NCBI GenBank assembly: GCA_018242005.1
Contig: JAFECU010000268.1
Coordinates: 1-52,152, forward strand
Source: Pseudomonadota bacterium
GTDB taxonomy: Bacteria; Pseudomonadota; Gammaproteobacteria; Burkholderiales; Burkholderiaceae_C
Direction of reading: 5' to 3'
Length of the DNA stretch: 52,152 nt
The translations under genes and the position numbers were made by a program. Positions 1,623 through 42,335 of the stretch are shown here, piece by piece; the stretch's first letter is position 1; each line of letters begins with the position of its first letter. The notes beneath the pieces are model-generated. The model was not told the origin of the DNA and searched no databases. It saw only the letters and a program-made list of their open reading frames with translations.

Positions 1623-1761
1623 GAGGCTGAGCGCCACATACCGCAACAACTTTTTCGGTAGTGACTGCACACTATGCAGGTTACACAATAGCCTCGTCAT
1701 GCGCCCCGACCATGCCAGTGCCTGCAGCATGGGGCGCGCGCCCAAGCCAGGAGACGATGCC

Positions 1762-4647
1762 ATGCCGACCTATCTGTTGCGTCAGGGGAGTCAGGATCCA
1801 TCGGTTTGCAAGCTGCGCAAGGCGCTGGTGGCCGAACTCGGGGACGCGGCGGCCAACTACCCGCAGCTGGACAAGGGCGGCGCGAGCTTCGACGCCACGT
1901 TGGACGCCGCGCTGCGCTTCTGGCAGAACGGCCGCGGGCTGATTGCCGACGGCATCGTCGGGCCCAGCAACATGCTCGCGTTGGGGCTGGCCGACTGGCC
2001 GCGCCTCGAGTGCGACCTGGACGTGGACAGCGTCCATGCGCTGTTCCCCGCCACCAAGCCCGTCAACATCGCGCGCTACCTGCACTACGTGACGGCCGCG
2101 CTGCGCGCCGTGGGGCTGACGGGCCGTGACATGGTGCTGGCGGCGCTGGGCACCATACGCGCCGAGACCGAGGGCTTTGTGCCCATCTCCGAGTTCCAGT
2201 CCAAGTACAACACCGCGCCCGGCGGCACGCCGTTTGCGCTCTATGACGGCAAGCTCGGCAACCGCCGCGGTGAGGGCGCGATGTTCCGCGGGCGCGGCTT
2301 CGTGCAGCTCACGGGGCGCAGCAACTACGAGGTCTATGGCAAGAAGCTGGGCCTGGACCTGGCCGCCGCGCCGGACCTGGCCAATGCGCCCGAGGTGGCC
2401 GCGCTGCTGCTGGCGCTGTTCCTCGATGCGCACCGCGACGCCATGCAGGCCTGCCTGGCCGCGGGCGACTACAAGGGCGCGCGCCGCCTGGTCAACGGCG
2501 GCTCGCACGGGCTGGTCAACTTTGAGAGCGTGTTCGCGCTGGCCCAGACAGCCTTGCCCCCGGCCCCCGTAGCAGCCGCGGCACCGGCAGCGGCAGGACG
2601 TGCGGGCAAGCGTGCTTCCGGCCCGGCCCCACGCAAGCGTGCGCTGGCCGAGCAGATGGCCGAGCGCCAGCTCAATGCCACGGCCGATGCGCCCGACCTG
2701 CGCGACCGCCCCTACACCCCGCCGCCCATCAGCCTGGAGCCCGAATGGCCATCGGCCGACGTGGTGGGCAAGTGGCTGCCGGCCTATGCCAAGGCCGGCC
2801 TGGTGCTCAACCAGGGGCGCGAGGGTGCCTGCACCGGTTTTGGCCTCGCCGGCGTGGTCAACTACCTGCGCTGGGTGCGCGGCGGCCTGCCCAAGTCCCT
2901 GGTGTCGGTCAGCCCGCGCATGTTCTACAACATGGCGCGCCGCTATGACGAGTACGCGGGCGAGGACTACGAGGGTTCGAGCTGCCGCGGCGCCATCAAG
3001 GGCTGGTTCAACCATGGCGTCTGCTTGGAGGACGACTGGCCCTACCAGGCGACCGCGCAGAAGCCGCCGCAGTTCGGCTTTGCCGAGCGCGCGCGCGGCA
3101 CCACCGTGGGCGTGTACTACCGCATTGACACCAAGAGCATCTCCGACCTGCAGGCGGCCATCATGAACGTGGGCGCCATCTATGTCTCGAGCTACGTGCA
3201 TGACGGCTGGCAGCAGGTGCCCACGAGCAGCCTGCCCAAGAACCACGCGAGCCTGCCGGTGATCTGCTTCGACGGCGTGCCGCGGCGCGATGCGGGTCAT
3301 GCCTATGCGCTCGTGGGCTACAACGAGGGCGGCTTCATTCTGCAGAACTCCTGGGGCCCGGACTGGGGCGCGCATGGCTTTGCCGTGCTGAGCTACGAGG
3401 ACTGGCTGCAGCACGCCATGGACGCCTGGGTGGTCGCGCTGGGCGTGCCGGGCCTGATAGGCGGCGGGCGCAACGTACCGCAGGCCGGTGCCGGGCGCGC
3501 CGCGACGGGCCGGGGCTGGTCCGAGAGCCAGACGTTGGACCATGTGATCTCGGTCGGCAACGACGGCCGCATGAGCCGCTACCTGACCACCGACGAGCGC
3601 ACACGCAACCTCTCCTACCAGGTCAGCGTGCTGCCCGACCAGTGGTTCCGCGCGCAGGTGCCCAAGGGCAAGAAGCGGCTGGTGGTGTACGTGCATGGCG
3701 GGCTCAACAGCGAGGCCGACGGCCTCAAGCGCGCGCGCGCCCTGGGGCGGCTGTGCGAGGCCAATGGCTGCTACCCGCTGTTCGTGGTCTGGCACACGGG
3801 ACTGCTGGAGAGCATCGGCTACTACCTGGAGGACTGGCGCGCCGGCCGCCCGGCCGCCGCTGGCATCAAGGAATGGCTGACCGAGCGCACCGACGCGCTG
3901 ATCGAATCCACCATAGGCCGCACCGTGGTGCGCGCGCTCTGGAGCGAGATGAAGGAAAACGCCGGCTACGCCTGGCAGGCCACGCGCGCGGGCGACCTGC
4001 TGGCGCGCGCCCTGGGCGAGCTCAAGGCGCTGTGGGGCGACGAGCTGGAGATCCACCTCATGGGGCATTCGGCCGGCAGCATCTGGCTGGGCCACATGCT
4101 GAGCTGGATGGCCAAGGTGCAGACTACCCCCGGCGCGCCCAGCCTGCGCGAGTCCGTGGCCGGCATCGATCTCTACGCCCCCGCCTGCACGGTGGACTTT
4201 GCCAACCGCCATTTCGCCGACAAGGCGCTGCTCGCCAAGACCCATATCGCCGTGCTCAGCGACTCGCGCGAGCGTGATGACAACACCGCCTACATCTATC
4301 GCAAGTCGCTGCTGTACCTGGTGTCCAACGCGCTCGAGCAGGACCGGCGCACGCCGCTGCTGGGCCTGGAGCGTGCCCTGACGGGCCAGAACGATCAGAG
4401 CAGCTGGGACGGCGCCTCCACCACGGGCGAGACCCTGTCCATCTGGCGCCGCGCCGCGGCCGAGACCAAACTGGCCTCGCGCCTGACGGTCGTGCGCGAG
4501 GACAAGGTACTCACCGCCGAGCCAGACGTGCGCATCCCAGCAAGCCACGGTGCGTTCGACAACGACCTGGCCATCGTCGGCGCCTCACTCGCACGCATCT
4601 GCGGTGAGCCGCTGCGCGAGCCGCCGCACGACCTGCGCGGCTATTGA
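1762..4647 (+). CDS. Multi-enzyme protein: peptidoglycan-binding + GH19/lysozyme-like + papain-like protease + alpha/beta hydrolase
   Basis: 961 residues; start chosen at ATG 1762 because CAGGAGA lies 9-15 nt upstream (an open frame extends further 5' without support). Residues 1-75 resemble a peptidoglycan-binding domain (repetitive-turn FDATLDAALRFWQ...DGIVGP). Residues ~95-265 look like a GH19 endolysin/chitinase fold: AETEGF (likely catalytic Glu135) and FRGRGFVQLTGRSNY. A Pro/Ala/Lys linker spans 266-325. Residues ~325-560 are C1 papain-like with Gln351 and Cys357 in NQGREGACTGFG, His513 in GHAYALVGY and Asn529 in QNSWGPDWG. Residues ~620-940 are an alpha/beta hydrolase: VYVHGG, GHSAGS (Ser770) and a late SHGAFDND (His929). 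No signal peptide or membrane helix is seen. No adjacent immunity-like or lysis gene is present. Export by a specialised secretion system is inference only. Confidence 0.9.
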   Translation: MPTYLLRQGSQDPSVCKLRKALVAELGDAAANYPQLDKGGASFDATLDAALRFWQNGRGLIADGIVGPSNMLALGLADWPRLECDLDVDSVHALFPATKPVNIARYLHYVTAALRAVGLTGRDMVLAALGTIRAETEGFVPISEFQSKYNTAPGGTPFALYDGKLGNRRGEGAMFRGRGFVQLTGRSNYEVYGKKLGLDLAAAPDLANAPEVAALLLALFLDAHRDAMQACLAAGDYKGARRLVNGGSHGLVNFESVFALAQTALPPAPVAAAAPAAAGRAGKRASGPAPRKRALAEQMAERQLNATADAPDLRDRPYTPPPISLEPEWPSADVVGKWLPAYAKAGLVLNQGREGACTGFGLAGVVNYLRWVRGGLPKSLVSVSPRMFYNMARRYDEYAGEDYEGSSCRGAIKGWFNHGVCLEDDWPYQATAQKPPQFGFAERARGTTVGVYYRIDTKSISDLQAAIMNVGAIYVSSYVHDGWQQVPTSSLPKNHASLPVICFDGVPRRDAGHAYALVGYNEGGFILQNSWGPDWGAHGFAVLSYEDWLQHAMDAWVVALGVPGLIGGGRNVPQAGAGRAATGRGWSESQTLDHVISVGNDGRMSRYLTTDERTRNLSYQVSVLPDQWFRAQVPKGKKRLVVYVHGGLNSEADGLKRARALGRLCEANGCYPLFVVWHTGLLESIGYYLEDWRAGRPAAAGIKEWLTERTDALIESTIGRTVVRALWSEMKENAGYAWQATRAGDLLARALGELKALWGDELEIHLMGHSAGSIWLGHMLSWMAKVQTTPGAPSLRESVAGIDLYAPACTVDFANRHFADKALLAKTHIAVLSDSRERDDNTAYIYRKSLLYLVSNALEQDRRTPLLGLERALTGQNDQSSWDGASTTGETLSIWRRAAAETKLASRLTVVREDKVLTAEPDVRIPASHGAFDNDLAIVGASLARICGEPLREPPHDLRGY

Positions 4648-5022: not shown

Positions 5023-6063
5023 ATGACCCATGCCACGCCCACCCCGGATGCCGCCGCACGCCCCATGCAATGGCATGCGCCCGCACGCCCCGCCACCGCA
5101 CCCGCCGACGCGCACTGGACGGTGCAGGCCATCCAGGCCCTGCTGGACAAGCCCTTCATGGACCTGCTGTTCCAGGCCCAGACCGTGCACCGCGCCCACT
5201 GGCCGGCGGGCGAGATCGAGCTGGCCACCCTGCTGTCGGTAAAAACCGGCGGCTGCCCCGAGAACTGCGGTTACTGCCCGCAATCTGCCGAATTCGACAC
5301 GGGCGTCAAGGCCGAGAAGCTCATGAGCGTGGAGGAGGTCACGCAGGCGGCCCAGGCCGCCAAGGACGCCGGCGCCACGCGCTTTTGCATGGGCGCGGCC
5401 TGGCGCGCGCCCAAGGATCGCGACATCGAGAAGCTGAACGTGCTCATCGGCGCCGTGAAGGGCCTCGGCATGCAGACCTGCGCCACGCTGGGCATGTTGC
5501 AGCCGCACCAGGCGCGCGCCCTGCGCGAGGCCGGGCTTGACTACTACAACCACAACCTGGACACCGCACCCGAGTACTACCAGGACGTCGTCAGCACCCG
5601 CCAGTACCAGGACCGCCTCGACACGCTGCAGGCCGTGCGCGACGCGGGCATCAACGTCTGCTGCGGCGGCATCATCGGCATGGGCGAAGAGGTCGTGCAC
5701 CGTGCGGGCCTGATTGCCCAGCTGGCGAACATGGATCCCTACCCCGATTCCGTGCCCATCAACAGCCTGGTGCCCGTGCCCGGCACGCCGCTGGCGGACA
5801 GCGATCCCATCGACCCGCTGGACTTCGTGCGCGTGATCGCCGTGGCCCGCATCACCATGCCCCGGGCGCGCGTGCGTCTGTCGGCGGGACGCCAGCAGCT
5901 CGGCGAGGCGGTGCAGGCGCTGTGCTTCATGGCCGGGGCCAACTCCATCTTTTATGGCGACAAGCTGCTGGTGACGGGAAACCCCGACGTCCAGGCCGAC
6001 ACCGAGCTGATGCGCAAGCTCGGGCTCAAGGGGCTCAAGGGGCTGGAGGTTCCGGGGGGCTGA
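5023..6063 (+). CDS. bioB: Biotin synthase
   Basis: 346 residues, typical family length. BioB is a radical-SAM enzyme that inserts sulfur into dethiobiotin to make biotin in the cytosol. The 4Fe-4S/SAM motif is CPENCGYC (CxxxCxxC) near residue 80; [18 protein letters not shown] and LSAGR (the Arg ligand of the 2Fe-2S cluster in the E. coli enzyme) are all present. ATG 5023 was chosen because AAGGAG lies 9 nt upstream. It stands alone: no bioA, bioD or bioF is adjacent, so the pathway is split in this genome. Confidence 0.97.
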
Positions 6064-6130
6064 GAGGCTGCCTTGTCAGGACAACATGCCTGATTGGCGA
6101 CCGATCTCAGCCAGCACGTGGGCAATACCC

Positions 6131-6158
6131 CGTCATTCCGGTGAAGGCGGGAATGACG
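6131..6158 (+). repeat. REP-like hairpin after bioB
   Basis: CGTCATTCC (6131-6139) and GGAATGACG (6150-6158) form a perfect 9-bp stem with a 10-nt loop. This sequence type (CGTCATTCC...GGAATGACG) is a widespread proteobacterial intergenic repeat. It could also end bioB transcription, though no T-run follows. Confidence 0.6.
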
Positions 6159-6185
6159 CTGATCTACGGTGCATGAATATTCAGA

Positions 6186-6227
6186 AAAATAGGTCTCAAA
6201 GCCAACACCATCAAGCGCGGCTAGCGA
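6186..6227 (-). repeat. Degenerate comamonad repeat, possible copy J
   Basis: On the minus strand CGCTAGCCGCGCTTGATGG is followed by GAGACCTATTTTT, resembling the central GCGCTTGATGG and the AGGCC-TTTT end of the family. The left end is lost. Weak match judged by eye. Confidence 0.35.
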
Positions 6228-6283
6228 TGTTGGGGCGGGCTCAATTCCGAAGTGCAACACCACACAACCGGCAATGTGCGCAG

Positions 6284-6577
6284 ATGGGATCGACATGCAC
6301 GCACTTGCAACCTGAAGAGAGAATGACACTGGCCTCGCTGCGCCTGCAAGGCTGGAGCATCCGGGCCATTGCCACGCTGCAGGGGCGCAGCCCCAGCACC
6401 ACCATCATCATCCGGGAGCTGCGACGAAACTCCTGTGATGGCAGCTACGCCGGTACGCCCGCGCAGCGCAAAAGCGCACAGCGGCGCATCGATACCCGCC
6501 CCTTGCCCAAGCTGCGCAGAGACCGCGTCTATGTGCTCGAGCAGGGCCGCATCGTGCACCAGGCGCCCATGGCCTAG
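6284..6577 (+). pseudogene. IS30-family transposase N-terminal fragment fused to a copied LivF tail
   Basis: Residues 6-79 (from THLQPEERMTLASLRLQGWS through GRSPSTTI and IRELRRN to LPKLRR) match the N-terminal helix-turn-helix of IS30 transposases. At base ~6518 this ends abruptly and continues in frame into DRVYVLEQGRIVHQAPMA, which is the end of LivF, then hits a TAG. No DDE catalytic domain and no terminal inverted repeats are seen, so it is not a mobile element any more. The region 6064-6704 otherwise holds only repeats. Confidence 0.75.
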
Positions 6578-6591
6578 CTGGCGCACGACGC
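6521..6591 (+). repeat. Partial duplication of the livF 3' end
   Basis: 6521-6591 repeats 1521-1591 with only three mismatches (6564 C for G; 6575 T for G; 6577 G for A). Two of these turn a GAA codon into the stop TAG. The reading frame is the same as in livF. The copies are exactly 5000 nt apart, which is probably chance. Confidence 0.9.
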
Positions 6592-6704
6592 GTGGGGGTG
6601 ACGGCACACCTGGGCCGTCGCACAATAGCCTCTCGGCGTGATCAAGCAGACAGGCTTCGCCGCGCTGGACACGTTCATTCGCACTCGCGCAACGGGAGTT
6701 TCCG

Positions 6705-7304
6705 ATGAGTGATGAGAAGCCCGCCACCTCGTGGTGGCAGACCCTGCCGGGCGTGCTCACGGGAATAGCCGCCGTGATCACCGCCGTGGGGGGATTGGTC
6801 GCCGTCGTCCATCAGAGCGGGCTCTTTGGCAGGGAGGCTCCCCGGCCCGCCTCGACCGGACCACGTCCCCAGAATCAGGTCGTGGCGAGCGCCAGTCCGG
6901 CGCCTGCGGAGGCCCCCAAAGGAGATGCACGGCAACCCGGCGAGCCGGGACAGGTGCGCGCGGGGCACTACGTGTTCAAGGTGTTGGCCACCAGCGTCGA
7001 ACCCTACGCAGGAGAGCAGAGCGGCGGCGCTCGCAAGCTCGCTCTTCGGCTGAGCATTCGCGTGACCGATGTCATGGGCACTTCCGATTACGTGGACGGC
7101 AACACCATTCGGCTCTCCGTCGATGGCGCGGAGCAGATGCCGGCGAATTCGATCAACGTCCCCGTCTATGAACGCCAGTCCGCCGAAACACAGGCCCTGT
7201 TCGTCGTGCCGTCTGACGCGTCGGCCATCGCCCTGCTGCTCGGGCGGCGGGAAGATGCCGTTGCCAGGCTCCCCCTGGCCCTGGACTTGAGCGCGTATCG
7301 CTGA
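6705..7304 (+). CDS. Membrane-anchored protein of unknown function
   Basis: 199 residues; ATG 6705 is preceded by ACGGGAG. A tryptophan-containing segment (SWWQTLPGVLTGIAAVITA, about residues 9-27) leads into a membrane helix to ~36; this WW-TLPG-hydrophobic anchor recurs in many unrelated bacterial proteins. A Pro/Ala-rich linker (45-80) precedes a C-terminal domain (85-199) that looks beta-rich with alternating hydrophobics (VFKVLATSVEPYAG, LRLSIRVTDVM). I do not recognise the domain. It probably exposes the C-terminus to the periplasm. It converges on comM. Confidence 0.75.
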   Translation: MSDEKPATSWWQTLPGVLTGIAAVITAVGGLVAVVHQSGLFGREAPRPASTGPRPQNQVVASASPAPAEAPKGDARQPGEPGQVRAGHYVFKVLATSVEPYAGEQSGGARKLALRLSIRVTDVMGTSDYVDGNTIRLSVDGAEQMPANSINVPVYERQSAETQALFVVPSDASAIALLLGRREDAVARLPLALDLSAYR

Positions 7305-7352
7305 TCGGTTCGGCCTGGCAGTCGGACGCGCTTGCCAGTGCCGAGCCTGGTC

Positions 7353-8891
7353 TCAGTGGTCGGCCGAGCGATGCAGCGCGCGCCGGTACTGAATGGCTTC
7401 CGCCACATGGGCCAGCGTCACATGCTCGGACCCCGCCAGATCGGCAATGGTGCGCGCGACCTTGAGCGCGCGGTGCGTGCCGCGCGCCGACCAGGCCAGG
7501 CGCGTGGCGGCGGTCTGCAGAAAGCGCGCCGCCGCCTCGTCCAGCGCCGCCACTTCGTCCAGCTGCCGGCCCTGCAGCGCCTGGTTGGGCACGCCCTGGC
7601 GCTTTTGCGCGCGCTCGTGCGCCAGGGCCACGCGCGCGCGTACGGCGGCGCTGGGTTCGCCCGCGGGCGCGCCCAGCAGCTCGTCGGCGGGCAGCTGCGG
7701 CACCTCCACATGCAGGTCGATGCGGTCGAGCAGCGGGCCGGAGAGTTTGCCCTGGTAGCGCGCCACCTGGTCGGGCGTGCAGCGGCAGGCGCGCTGCCTG
7801 GAGCCAGCAAAGCCGCAGGGGCAGGGGTTCATGGCGGCGACGAGCTGAAAGCGCGCCGGAAACTCGGCGCGCTGCGCCGCGCGCGCGATGGTGATGCGCC
7901 CGCTCTCGAGCGGCTCGCGCAGGGCCTCGAGGGCGCTGCGTGCGAACTCGGGGAATTCGTCGAGGAACAGCACGCCCTCGTGCGCGAGCGAGATCTCGCC
8001 CGGCCGCGGCGGCGAGCCCCCGCCCACCAGCGCCACGGCGCTGCAGCTGTGGTGCGGGCTGGCCGTCTGGCGCCGCATCCACTGCTGCGGCGTGAAGCGC
8101 CCGGCCAGGCTGGCGATGGCCGCGCTCTCCAGCGCCTGCTGCACCTGCATGGGCGGCAGCAGGCCGGCAAAGCGCTGCGCCAGCATGGACTTGCCCGAGC
8201 CCGGCGGGCCGACGAGCAGCAGTCCATGGCCGCCGGCGGCCGCGATTTCGAGTGCGCGCCTCGCGGCGGCCTGGCCCTTGACGTCGGCCAGGTCCGGGCC
8301 GTCGGGCTGCGCCGCGGGCAGGGCCGGCGCCATGCGCTGCCAGCCGTCGTCATCGCCCTCGGGCTCGGGCGCGCTGCCGGCGGGCAGAAACTGGCGCACC
8401 ACGTCGAGCAGGTGGCGCGCGCGCCAGATCTGGGCGCCGGGCACCAGGGCGGCCTCCTCGGCGCTGCCGGGCGGCAGCACCATGCGCAGATCCTGCGCGC
8501 GCAGCGCCAGGCTGGTGGCCAGTGAGCCGCGCACGGGCCGCAGCTGGCCCGACAGCGAGAGCTCGCCCGCAAATTCCCAGCCGCCCAAGCGCGCCGCGTC
8601 GATCTGCCCGCTGGCGGCCAACAGCCCCAAGGCGATGGGCAGGTCAAAACGCCCCGAGTCCTTGGGCAGGTCGGCCGGCGCCAGGTTGACGGTGATCTTC
8701 TTGTTGGAGGGGAAGTCCAGGCCCGCGTTCTGCAGCGCCGAGCGCACACGCTCGCGCGCCTCTTTCACCTCGACATCGGCCAGGCCCACGAGCGCAAAGC
8801 TCGGCAGGCCGTTGGCCAGATGCACCTCGACGGTGACCGCGGGCGCCTGCAGGCCCAGCAGGGCGCGGCTTTGCACCAAAGCAAGACTCAT
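7353..8891 (-). CDS. comM: ComM/YifB-family Mg-chelatase-like AAA+ ATPase
   Basis: 512 residues. The N-terminal ChlI/Lon-like domain (1-~165) is followed by an AAA+ core with Walker A GPPGSGKSMLAQR and Walker B GVLFLDEFPEF, then the MNPCPCGF motif and a C-terminal chelatase-type helical region. ComM is a helicase that drives branch migration during integration of transforming DNA in naturally competent bacteria; that role is known from Vibrio/Haemophilus and inferred here. ATG 8891 opens with the family-typical MSLALVQSRALLGL. The gene diverges from the porin-glnK-amtB operon, and the proposed NtrC site lies in its upstream region. Confidence 0.95.
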   Translation of the reverse strand: MSLALVQSRALLGLQAPAVTVEVHLANGLPSFALVGLADVEVKEARERVRSALQNAGLDFPSNKKITVNLAPADLPKDSGRFDLPIALGLLAASGQIDAARLGGWEFAGELSLSGQLRPVRGSLATSLALRAQDLRMVLPPGSAEEAALVPGAQIWRARHLLDVVRQFLPAGSAPEPEGDDDGWQRMAPALPAAQPDGPDLADVKGQAAARRALEIAAAGGHGLLLVGPPGSGKSMLAQRFAGLLPPMQVQQALESAAIASLAGRFTPQQWMRRQTASPHHSCSAVALVGGGSPPRPGEISLAHEGVLFLDEFPEFARSALEALREPLESGRITIARAAQRAEFPARFQLVAAMNPCPCGFAGSRQRACRCTPDQVARYQGKLSGPLLDRIDLHVEVPQLPADELLGAPAGEPSAAVRARVALAHERAQKRQGVPNQALQGRQLDEVAALDEAAARFLQTAATRLAWSARGTHRALKVARTIADLAGSEHVTLAHVAEAIQYRRALHRSADH

Positions 8892-40694: not shown

Positions 40695-41126
40695 CTATGG
40701 CTGTACGTGCAGACGGATGTGAAAGCGGTTGATCACCGAGGCGTCGCCCTCCCAGTGGCGCCAGTACTTCAGTGTGACCTCACCCGAGCCGGCCTTCTTG
40801 CCCTTGAAGACAAAGGCCACGAGCCCGCCCGAGCCCACGCCGCTGGCCTGGTACTGGGGTTCGGCCGCCACTGGCTCCAGGACGCTCTTGTTGAAATGGT
40901 CGATGGCCCAGCGGTAGCCGCTGGTGGCGTTCTCTGGCAGGTTGATGCGTACCGACTCGCCCAGGCGGATGTCCACGGTCCGGCCATTTTCAGTCTCTGT
41001 GATGGATAGCATGCGTGGTGGCTCCTTTGTGGAGTAGGCCTCGTCCCCCGCGCTGGCGGCGGGACTGTTGCATGCCGCCACCAGCACGGCGGCAGCGAGC
41101 AACGGCATGGACGAGATCCCGATCAC
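40695..41126 (-). CDS. Chagasin-family (I42) cysteine-protease inhibitor, lipoprotein
   Basis: 143 residues. The N-terminus MIGISSMPLLAAAVLVAACN has a lipobox LVAAC, so the mature protein should be lipid-anchored in the envelope. The inhibitor domain shows the three chagasin loops: ENATSGYRWAI (usual NPTTGY.W), GVGSGGLVAFVFKG and KYWRHWEG (usual RPW). Chagasins bind and block papain-type C1 proteases. GTG 41126 is taken as start; ATG 41108 is an alternative giving a shorter, less basic signal. The gene follows the papain-like protease by 21 nt on the same strand, so they form a pair. Confidence 0.88.
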   Translation of the reverse strand: MIGISSMPLLAAAVLVAACNSPAASAGDEAYSTKEPPRMLSITETENGRTVDIRLGESVRINLPENATSGYRWAIDHFNKSVLEPVAAEPQYQASGVGSGGLVAFVFKGKKAGSGEVTLKYWRHWEGDASVINRFHIRLHVQP

Positions 41127-41147: not shown

Positions 41148-41960
41148 TCAGAGCGTCGCGCCGTAGCTCTCGTTGAAGAAACCGGCATTGATATAGGCCT
41201 CGCTGGCGTAGGCGAAGCCGTGGTCGCCCCAGGTCGTGCCCCAGCTGTTGCGAATGATGAAGCGCTGGTCGGCCGTATAACCCACGATGCACACCGCATG
41301 CCCGCCGCGCACGGTCTTGGGCTGGAAGGTGTCGAGTTTTCCATGGGTTGCCGTGGCATTATCCCAGGTGGCATCCACACTCAGGCCCGCCAGAATGGGG
41401 CCATGCGCGGCAAGCCAGGCGCGCCAGTCGCCGAGATTCTTGGCCAGGTTGAAATACGATGCAATGCGCCGGGTGGCGGCGGTGGCGTAAAACGTGTTTT
41501 CATTGCCCGTGTACATGGCATTGCCAATATGAAATGGCAGCATGGACTCCGGCACGGCGCCATATTTGCGCAGAATATCCATCGCGGCCTTGAGGCTGGT
41601 GCCGGCTTCTTCGATGAAGGTTTCCGGGCGGCTCGTGTATTCGTCGGTTTCCTTGGAGGCCATCCAGGTGCAGCGCGGCGACAGCAGGCCGGGGCTGGCA
41701 ATTCGGCCGGCCTTGACCATGTGGTAGCGCACCACGCCGTCGGTCGATGCCCAGCCGACGCAGGAGCCGGTATTTTCCTGGTTGCCGATCTGCCACCAGC
41801 TGGCACGCAGATCGACGCTGGCGGGTGGGGCCGCCGGCGGCGCGGCGATGGCGGCCGAAGCAATCGCATGTTCCATGCCCCAGTCGGTTTCTGTCTTGTG
41901 AGAACTCACAAGATTGCAGATGCGATGCGCTTCGGGTCTTGTGCTGTGCTTGGTGCTCAT
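41148..41960 (-). CDS. Papain-like (C1) cysteine protease
   Basis: 270 residues; ATG 41960 is backed by GAGGAG 7 nt upstream, so longer frames are rejected. Catalytic elements: Gln and Cys in IGNQENTGSCVGWAS, His in GGHAVCIVGYTAD, Asn in IIRNSWGTTWGDHGFAYA. SPRCTWMASK and the general layout match the protease domain of the protein at 1762-4647, so both belong to one bacterial C1A subgroup. No signal peptide or propeptide of the usual papain type is visible; residues 1-50 are polar to Ala/Pro-rich. It is co-transcribed with a chagasin-like lipoprotein inhibitor. Non-classical export is inference. Confidence 0.92.
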   Translation of the reverse strand: MSTKHSTRPEAHRICNLVSSHKTETDWGMEHAIASAAIAAPPAAPPASVDLRASWWQIGNQENTGSCVGWASTDGVVRYHMVKAGRIASPGLLSPRCTWMASKETDEYTSRPETFIEEAGTSLKAAMDILRKYGAVPESMLPFHIGNAMYTGNENTFYATAATRRIASYFNLAKNLGDWRAWLAAHGPILAGLSVDATWDNATATHGKLDTFQPKTVRGGHAVCIVGYTADQRFIIRNSWGTTWGDHGFAYASEAYINAGFFNESYGATL

Positions 41961-42335
41961 GGCTATTCTCCTCGGGGTGTGAGTCAAATGACCGGTACGG
42001 ATATGGGTTCTTCTGGCGTTGTTCTCAGACAAAACAGTGTGTTGGCTGGTTGGCGGTGTACTCCTTTCGGTTGAATGTCGTCCGGCTTGCAAAACCATGG
42101 CGAATAACTTGATGCTGACCAGAAGTTCCGGTGAATCATGGATGGCATCGTGGTTATTTGTATAGCCAAAAGAATTGGCGCCGTCTGTAAATCTGTGTAA
42201 TGAAAATTCGATTTGCCGAGGACGGGTAGCCATCGATCGGTGAAGCCTTGTTTTGCATTTGTGTGCGTCTGCTTGCAATCAAGCGTCAACCAGAATTCCC
42301 GGGCGGCCGTTGGCTGGCGGAAGTTTGTTTTAAAG
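41961..42335 (+). other. AT-richer divergent promoter region
   Basis: 375 nt between the protease operon (minus) and the envelope protein gene (plus). It is clearly less GC-rich than the surroundings, holds no supportable gene, and must contain both promoters. The compositional drop may mark a transferred segment, but was judged only by eye. Confidence 0.5.

Follow-up and report, generated by a model that had tools for sequence, protein, structure and literature searches.

A single 961-residue protein, encoded in a 52,152-nt stretch of Pseudomonadota DNA (the window), consists of a wall-binding N-terminus, a GH19 fold, a xylellain-like C1 protease and a lipase-like alpha/beta hydrolase (ABH). 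Tentatively, with a probability of about 0.4, we favor a role as a latent cytosolic enzyme that would lyse and digest its own cell upon activation, a reading for which we count the conserved catalytic residues, purifying selection, the lack of a signal peptide, trios of the same activities built from other domains, and the neighbors of relatives. The protein would be held latent in the cytosol until stress, infection or programmed lysis activated it; the ABH would attack membrane lipids and open a path to the wall, the peptidoglycan-binding-like (PGB) and GH19 part would then cut peptidoglycan, and the C1 protease would degrade proteins and might cleave the linker, releasing the GH19 part, leaving the cell lysed and digested from inside. 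This order of action is a guess; the single chain would keep the three activities together and mobile as one gene. If the three do act jointly, they would define a class of one-gene executioners or digestive effectors, connect enzymes of the endolysin type with the caspase and conflict systems of bacteria, and offer a single-gene handle on bacterial programmed lysis, where the final cell-opening step is often obscure.

Domain layout and conservation

An earlier sequence-only reading had proposed one polypeptide with three enzyme folds behind a wall-binding N-terminus and no signal peptide. Domain, structure and catalytic-residue comparisons agree with this layout (Table 1), and hydropathy, the sole method used for signal peptides, indicates neither a signal peptide nor a membrane segment. 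The translated frame has no internal stops and continues open upstream of the ATG at 1762; across 83 full-length alignment rows the start falls at query residue 1–5 in 73 and at 8, 15, 40 or 43 in the other ten.

Table 1. Features of the gene and its encoded modules in the window
Feature	Coordinates	Strand	Remarks
AGGAGA, likely ribosome-binding site	1749..1754	+	7 nt 5′ of the ATG; read from the sequence
Complete coding sequence, 961 aa plus stop	1762..4647	+	
PGB domain, residues 1–80	1762..2001	+	PF01471 0.041; model pLDDT mostly 81–93
GH19 module, residues 85–265	2014..2556	+	E135, E144
Linker, residues 266–308, Ala/Arg/Pro/Lys-rich	2557..2685	+	unconserved; most at pLDDT <50
Papain-like C1 protease, residues 309–564	2686..3453	+	Q351/C357/H513/N529
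Lipase-like ABH, residues 600–961	3559..4644	+	HGG 645–647/S770/D840/H929

In a Pfam scan of the 961-aa protein, Peptidase_C1 passes the cut-off (E 4e-10), with Glyco_hydro_19 (2.5e-4), PG_binding_1 (0.041) and DUF900, the ABH match (0.08), falling under theirs; a standalone PGB-GH19 relative carries the PG-binding domain PF01471 at 2.1e-14. Residues 85–277 match a PHROG endolysin family at 4.6e-27, and sequence comparison to solved structures returns xylellain (3ois, 5.8e-12) for the C1 module and a GH19 endolysin (4ok7, 2.2e-10). Among the 50 matches listed for the full chain, Foldseek gave papain-family structures only, so the ABH was folded alone; lipases and phospholipases then topped its list, with esterases within about 2 Z units. 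With the fold and both Glu residues present, the second module can be assigned to GH19 as a predicted glycosidase/endolysin; the fold together with Gln, Cys, His and Asn points to a papain family C1 protease, and the fold, GxSxG motif, acid and His, shared with ABH-fold lipases and phospholipases (2zyh, 4x97, 4qnn), to an alpha/beta hydrolase predicted to act on lipid or ester bonds. Xylellain, a short bacterial C1 protease and the best match of the C1 module in both structure and sequence, itself has neither a wall module nor an ABH module. GH19 endolysins (4ok7, 9eoi, 9ms7) resemble the GH19 module in fold and sequence, whereas the bacterial gene described here joins GH19 to a protease and a hydrolase. 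No published description of one protein with all three enzymes was found in the open-access literature, as the sequence-only reading had supposed.

We found 83 full-length single-frame copies (79 distinct) in Pseudomonadota and Thermodesulfobacteriota, with single-contig genomes among the carriers. That reading had named an assembly join, or homologs with the modules as separate genes, as grounds for abandoning it, and neither applies to this main family; among more distant relatives the modules also exist as separate genes. The flexible linker varies in length from 22 to 53 aa, and the catalytic residues listed by that reading (E135, Q351, C357, H513, N529, G768-H-S770-A-G772 and H929) are identical in all 83 rows (79 distinct). 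E144 and D840, which it had not named, are likewise invariant in 83/83, and we take them to be catalytic by analogy with their enzyme families. S770, D840 and H929 also stay unchanged across 48 ABH rows, among which are unfused and caspase-fused forms. Each of the four modules is under purifying selection, at dN/dS of 0.12–0.41 in four pairs of close relatives. The gene is broken in two cases, L012/L117 and L101; the latter, from Desulfobulbus (5842–8838), consists of two abutting frames split into a GH19/linker part and a C1-ABH part. Public labels of unfused relatives read merely ‘C1 family peptidase’ or ‘peptidoglycan-binding protein’.

Gene neighborhoods of fused loci and relatives

With neighbors clustered rather than individually named as immunity, VgrG or PAAR genes, at most 7 of 81 loci have any one neighbor family in common, and a conserved partner or immunity gene was therefore rejected; the earlier reading, too, saw no immunity gene adjacent. 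A suicide enzyme would not need an immunity gene, and this lack of a widely shared neighbor fits. To set the fused gene beside its relatives, we used 46 fused loci out of 80 and 40 relatives lacking PGB-GH19, the latter being 52 C1/ABH loci minus 12: six of PGB-GH19 architecture, one of them broken (L113–L117, L171), four further fused forms (L122, L175, L179 and L180), then L143, and L181 as a near-copy of L177. In some of the 40 the C1 domain alone is clearly similar (e.g. L131–L133, L138–L142, L178, L182, L184, L186, L189, L190). Neighbor genes came from a custom ORF picker that may call shadow frames in GC-rich DNA, and L125, which it mis-picked, was kept among the 40.

A separate wall hydrolase is directly adjacent in 9/40 relatives vs 1/46 fused loci, counted over interrelated loci, which makes Fisher p-values rough, and excluding DUF2272 (L136) and a lone PG_binding protein (L121); the 31 of 40 loci with no wall hydrolase directly adjacent count against self-lysis. 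A caspase is adjacent in 7/40 relatives and, on the same strand, in 1/46 fused loci; this one (L105, 5017–5871, + strand, C14 7e-32) lies directly upstream of a full-length gene on a Desulfobulbaceae contig. The phmmer queries for neighbors came partly from the 40, so the comparison favors them. Among the 92 direct neighbors of the 46 full-length loci, phmmer matched four, an M15 peptidase (L077), the L105 caspase and two PG_binding proteins, of which one is an L,D-transpeptidase (L110); none was a trypsin-NucA-like gene, and two of the 92 had a Trypsin_2 match. Among relatives, a C1-ABH gene is followed by a trypsin and Endonuclease_NS gene at L187, and L143 has caspase and trypsin-like genes next to an ABH relative.

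Such neighbors recall described conflict systems and count toward self-lysis; according to Kaur et al. (2020; PMC7159879), these systems include NucA-trypsin cores, caspase-ABH pairs, and lysozyme and papain-like domains linked to EAD1 and proposed to attack peptidoglycan, EAD1 being limited to a subset. L187 resembles System 3 (NucA plus trypsin) in having its trypsin and Endonuclease_NS gene beside C1-ABH, and the caspase genes beside C1-ABH relatives resemble, by gene kind, the caspase-ABH pairs of VMAP systems. The full-length family differs: it is solitary, carries three predicted activities per chain, and lacks the System 3 core pair among those 92 direct neighbors. No sensor or NTPase is fused to the 961-aa protein and none was seen that is common to its neighbors, no PADLOC family model matched the protein, and no EAD family of Pfam did so at E up to 1, all of which weigh against self-lysis.

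Six loci (L130, L132, L177, L182, L183, L188) have an animal-type heme peroxidase near the C1 or C1-ABH gene, directly adjacent in all but L130, where it lies two genes off and an annotated cytochrome P450 follows; peroxidases are not among the kinds that Kaur et al. assign to conflict systems. This pairing could possibly couple lipid release to lipid oxidation. At L118 (13650–17758), an M15 peptidase, an unknown protein of 313 aa, C1-ABH and a matrixin/astacin-like protease stand in a row on one strand, some 10 kb downstream of a PGB-GH19 gene that is separate from them.

Recurring trios and candidate roles

Further single chains likewise combine a wall hydrolase, a cysteine protease and a serine hydrolase but draw on different domains: a second GH19+C1+ABH, Muramidase+C1+ABH, Amidase_2+ABH+caspase and GDSL+caspase+M15. 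The wall part can thus be GH19, Muramidase, Amidase_2 or M15, the protease papain or caspase, and the lipid/ester part ABH or GDSL, and a tree test rejects one clade for C1-ABH fusions (p-AU 7e-5). Because the same three activities appear in chains of different domains, we regard the recurrence as comparative evidence for joint use, and it suggests that they serve together to dismantle a cell. It is possible, though on balance doubtful, that such chains form a repeatedly assembled one-polypeptide ‘demolition triad’, a one-gene cell-death executioner achieving internal lysis and digestion without a holin or pore. The GDSL-caspase proteins (L131, L138, L139, L140, L178, L182, L190) have a similar N-terminus before GDSL, starting roughly ‘I(S/T)xEEL..K.AD....L..YF’ and without a Pfam match in the four scanned, which may be an adaptor domain.

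The main rival, which we consider doubtful yet worth serious attention, is the attack or scavenging enzyme proposed by the sequence-only reading: exported by a non-Sec route or freed by lysis of part of the population, it would digest the wall, protein and lipids of others for killing or food. The wall-binding domain, the endolysin-like GH19 and the broad predicted digestive set suit it, and an enzyme acting beyond the producer's outer membrane would need no immunity gene; many full-length carriers are, judged from record titles, free-living environmental bacteria. Wall binding and GH19 are also compatible with action outside the cell, a point against self-lysis. The signal absent by hydropathy speaks against export, and of the secretion genes sought elsewhere in carriers, the T6SS sheath (PF05591) is present in 1/9 full-length carriers vs 23/91 other genomes and a VirB4-type gene in 5/10 carriers tested, so that neither system is common to all; T6SS cargo is unlikely as a general route, and a VirB4-type T4SS, though not required, is possible, as are other routes. 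Relatives, moreover, group with caspases and a trypsin-nuclease gene. Given the caspase, trypsin-nuclease and peroxidase genes beside the C1-ABH core and the recurring trios, self-destruction is at least as likely as attack.

We judge it improbable that the protein is an endolysin with added activities that releases particles or DNA for gene-transfer agents, prophages or tailocins whose genes lie at other sites. The GH19 module is endolysin-like, and LypABC, required for lysis of Caulobacter crescentus, includes LypC, with trypsin-like and endonuclease homologs (PMC13236601), a domain description that likens it to the trypsin-nuclease gene at L187 and that we count toward self-lysis as well; the main text of that paper does not contain the words hydrolase, papain or peptidoglycan. 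No full-length copy was found among 50,697 phage records, which gave three partial matches, readable neighbors in the window include no phage genes, and neighbors are not common between loci. IMG/VR yielded eight loci with partial matches only, the best without the GH19 module, and the earlier proposal of a prophage lysin remade by the host is therefore set aside; phage ancestry of the GH19 module alone is possible, since that module is endolysin-like. At least as improbable is an internal housekeeping enzyme recycling wall fragments, proteins and esters without a role in lysis or attack: the solitary gene with no signal and no toxin-type partner seen would suit it, but its distribution is patchy (full-length in 9/100 related genomes, a C1-ABH match in 11/299 genomes across the phylum), the intact wall that GH19 would cut lies outside the cytosol, and relatives neighbor caspases and wall hydrolases.

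Upstream regions and surroundings in the window

For the self-lysis reading, the 79 upstream regions are an unfavorable point, as no promoter-type motif is prominent in them: LexA, strict sigma-54 and sigma-70 patterns gave 0 matches and a loose sigma-54 pattern one. The commonest dyads there are GC-rich (15 of 79 regions vs 8 in one shuffle). Elsewhere in the window, the minus-strand frames 40695–41126 and 41148–42278 comprise a second papain-like C1 frame (PF00112 5e-14) and then a chagasin-family inhibitor (PF09394 2e-18), which is likely the inhibitor of that second protease. The chagasin-type family occurs in 11/100 related genomes, and as a guard of our C1 module this I42 inhibitor was rejected, being present in one of nine carriers, G000 itself. 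An 86-nt direct repeat (88%; 1521–1606 and 6521–6606) flanks the gene and the next frame; it is the 3′ end of an ABC-ATPase frame, recurring 5,000 nt downstream beside an HTH_38 frame that we take to be an IS30-type transposase remnant.
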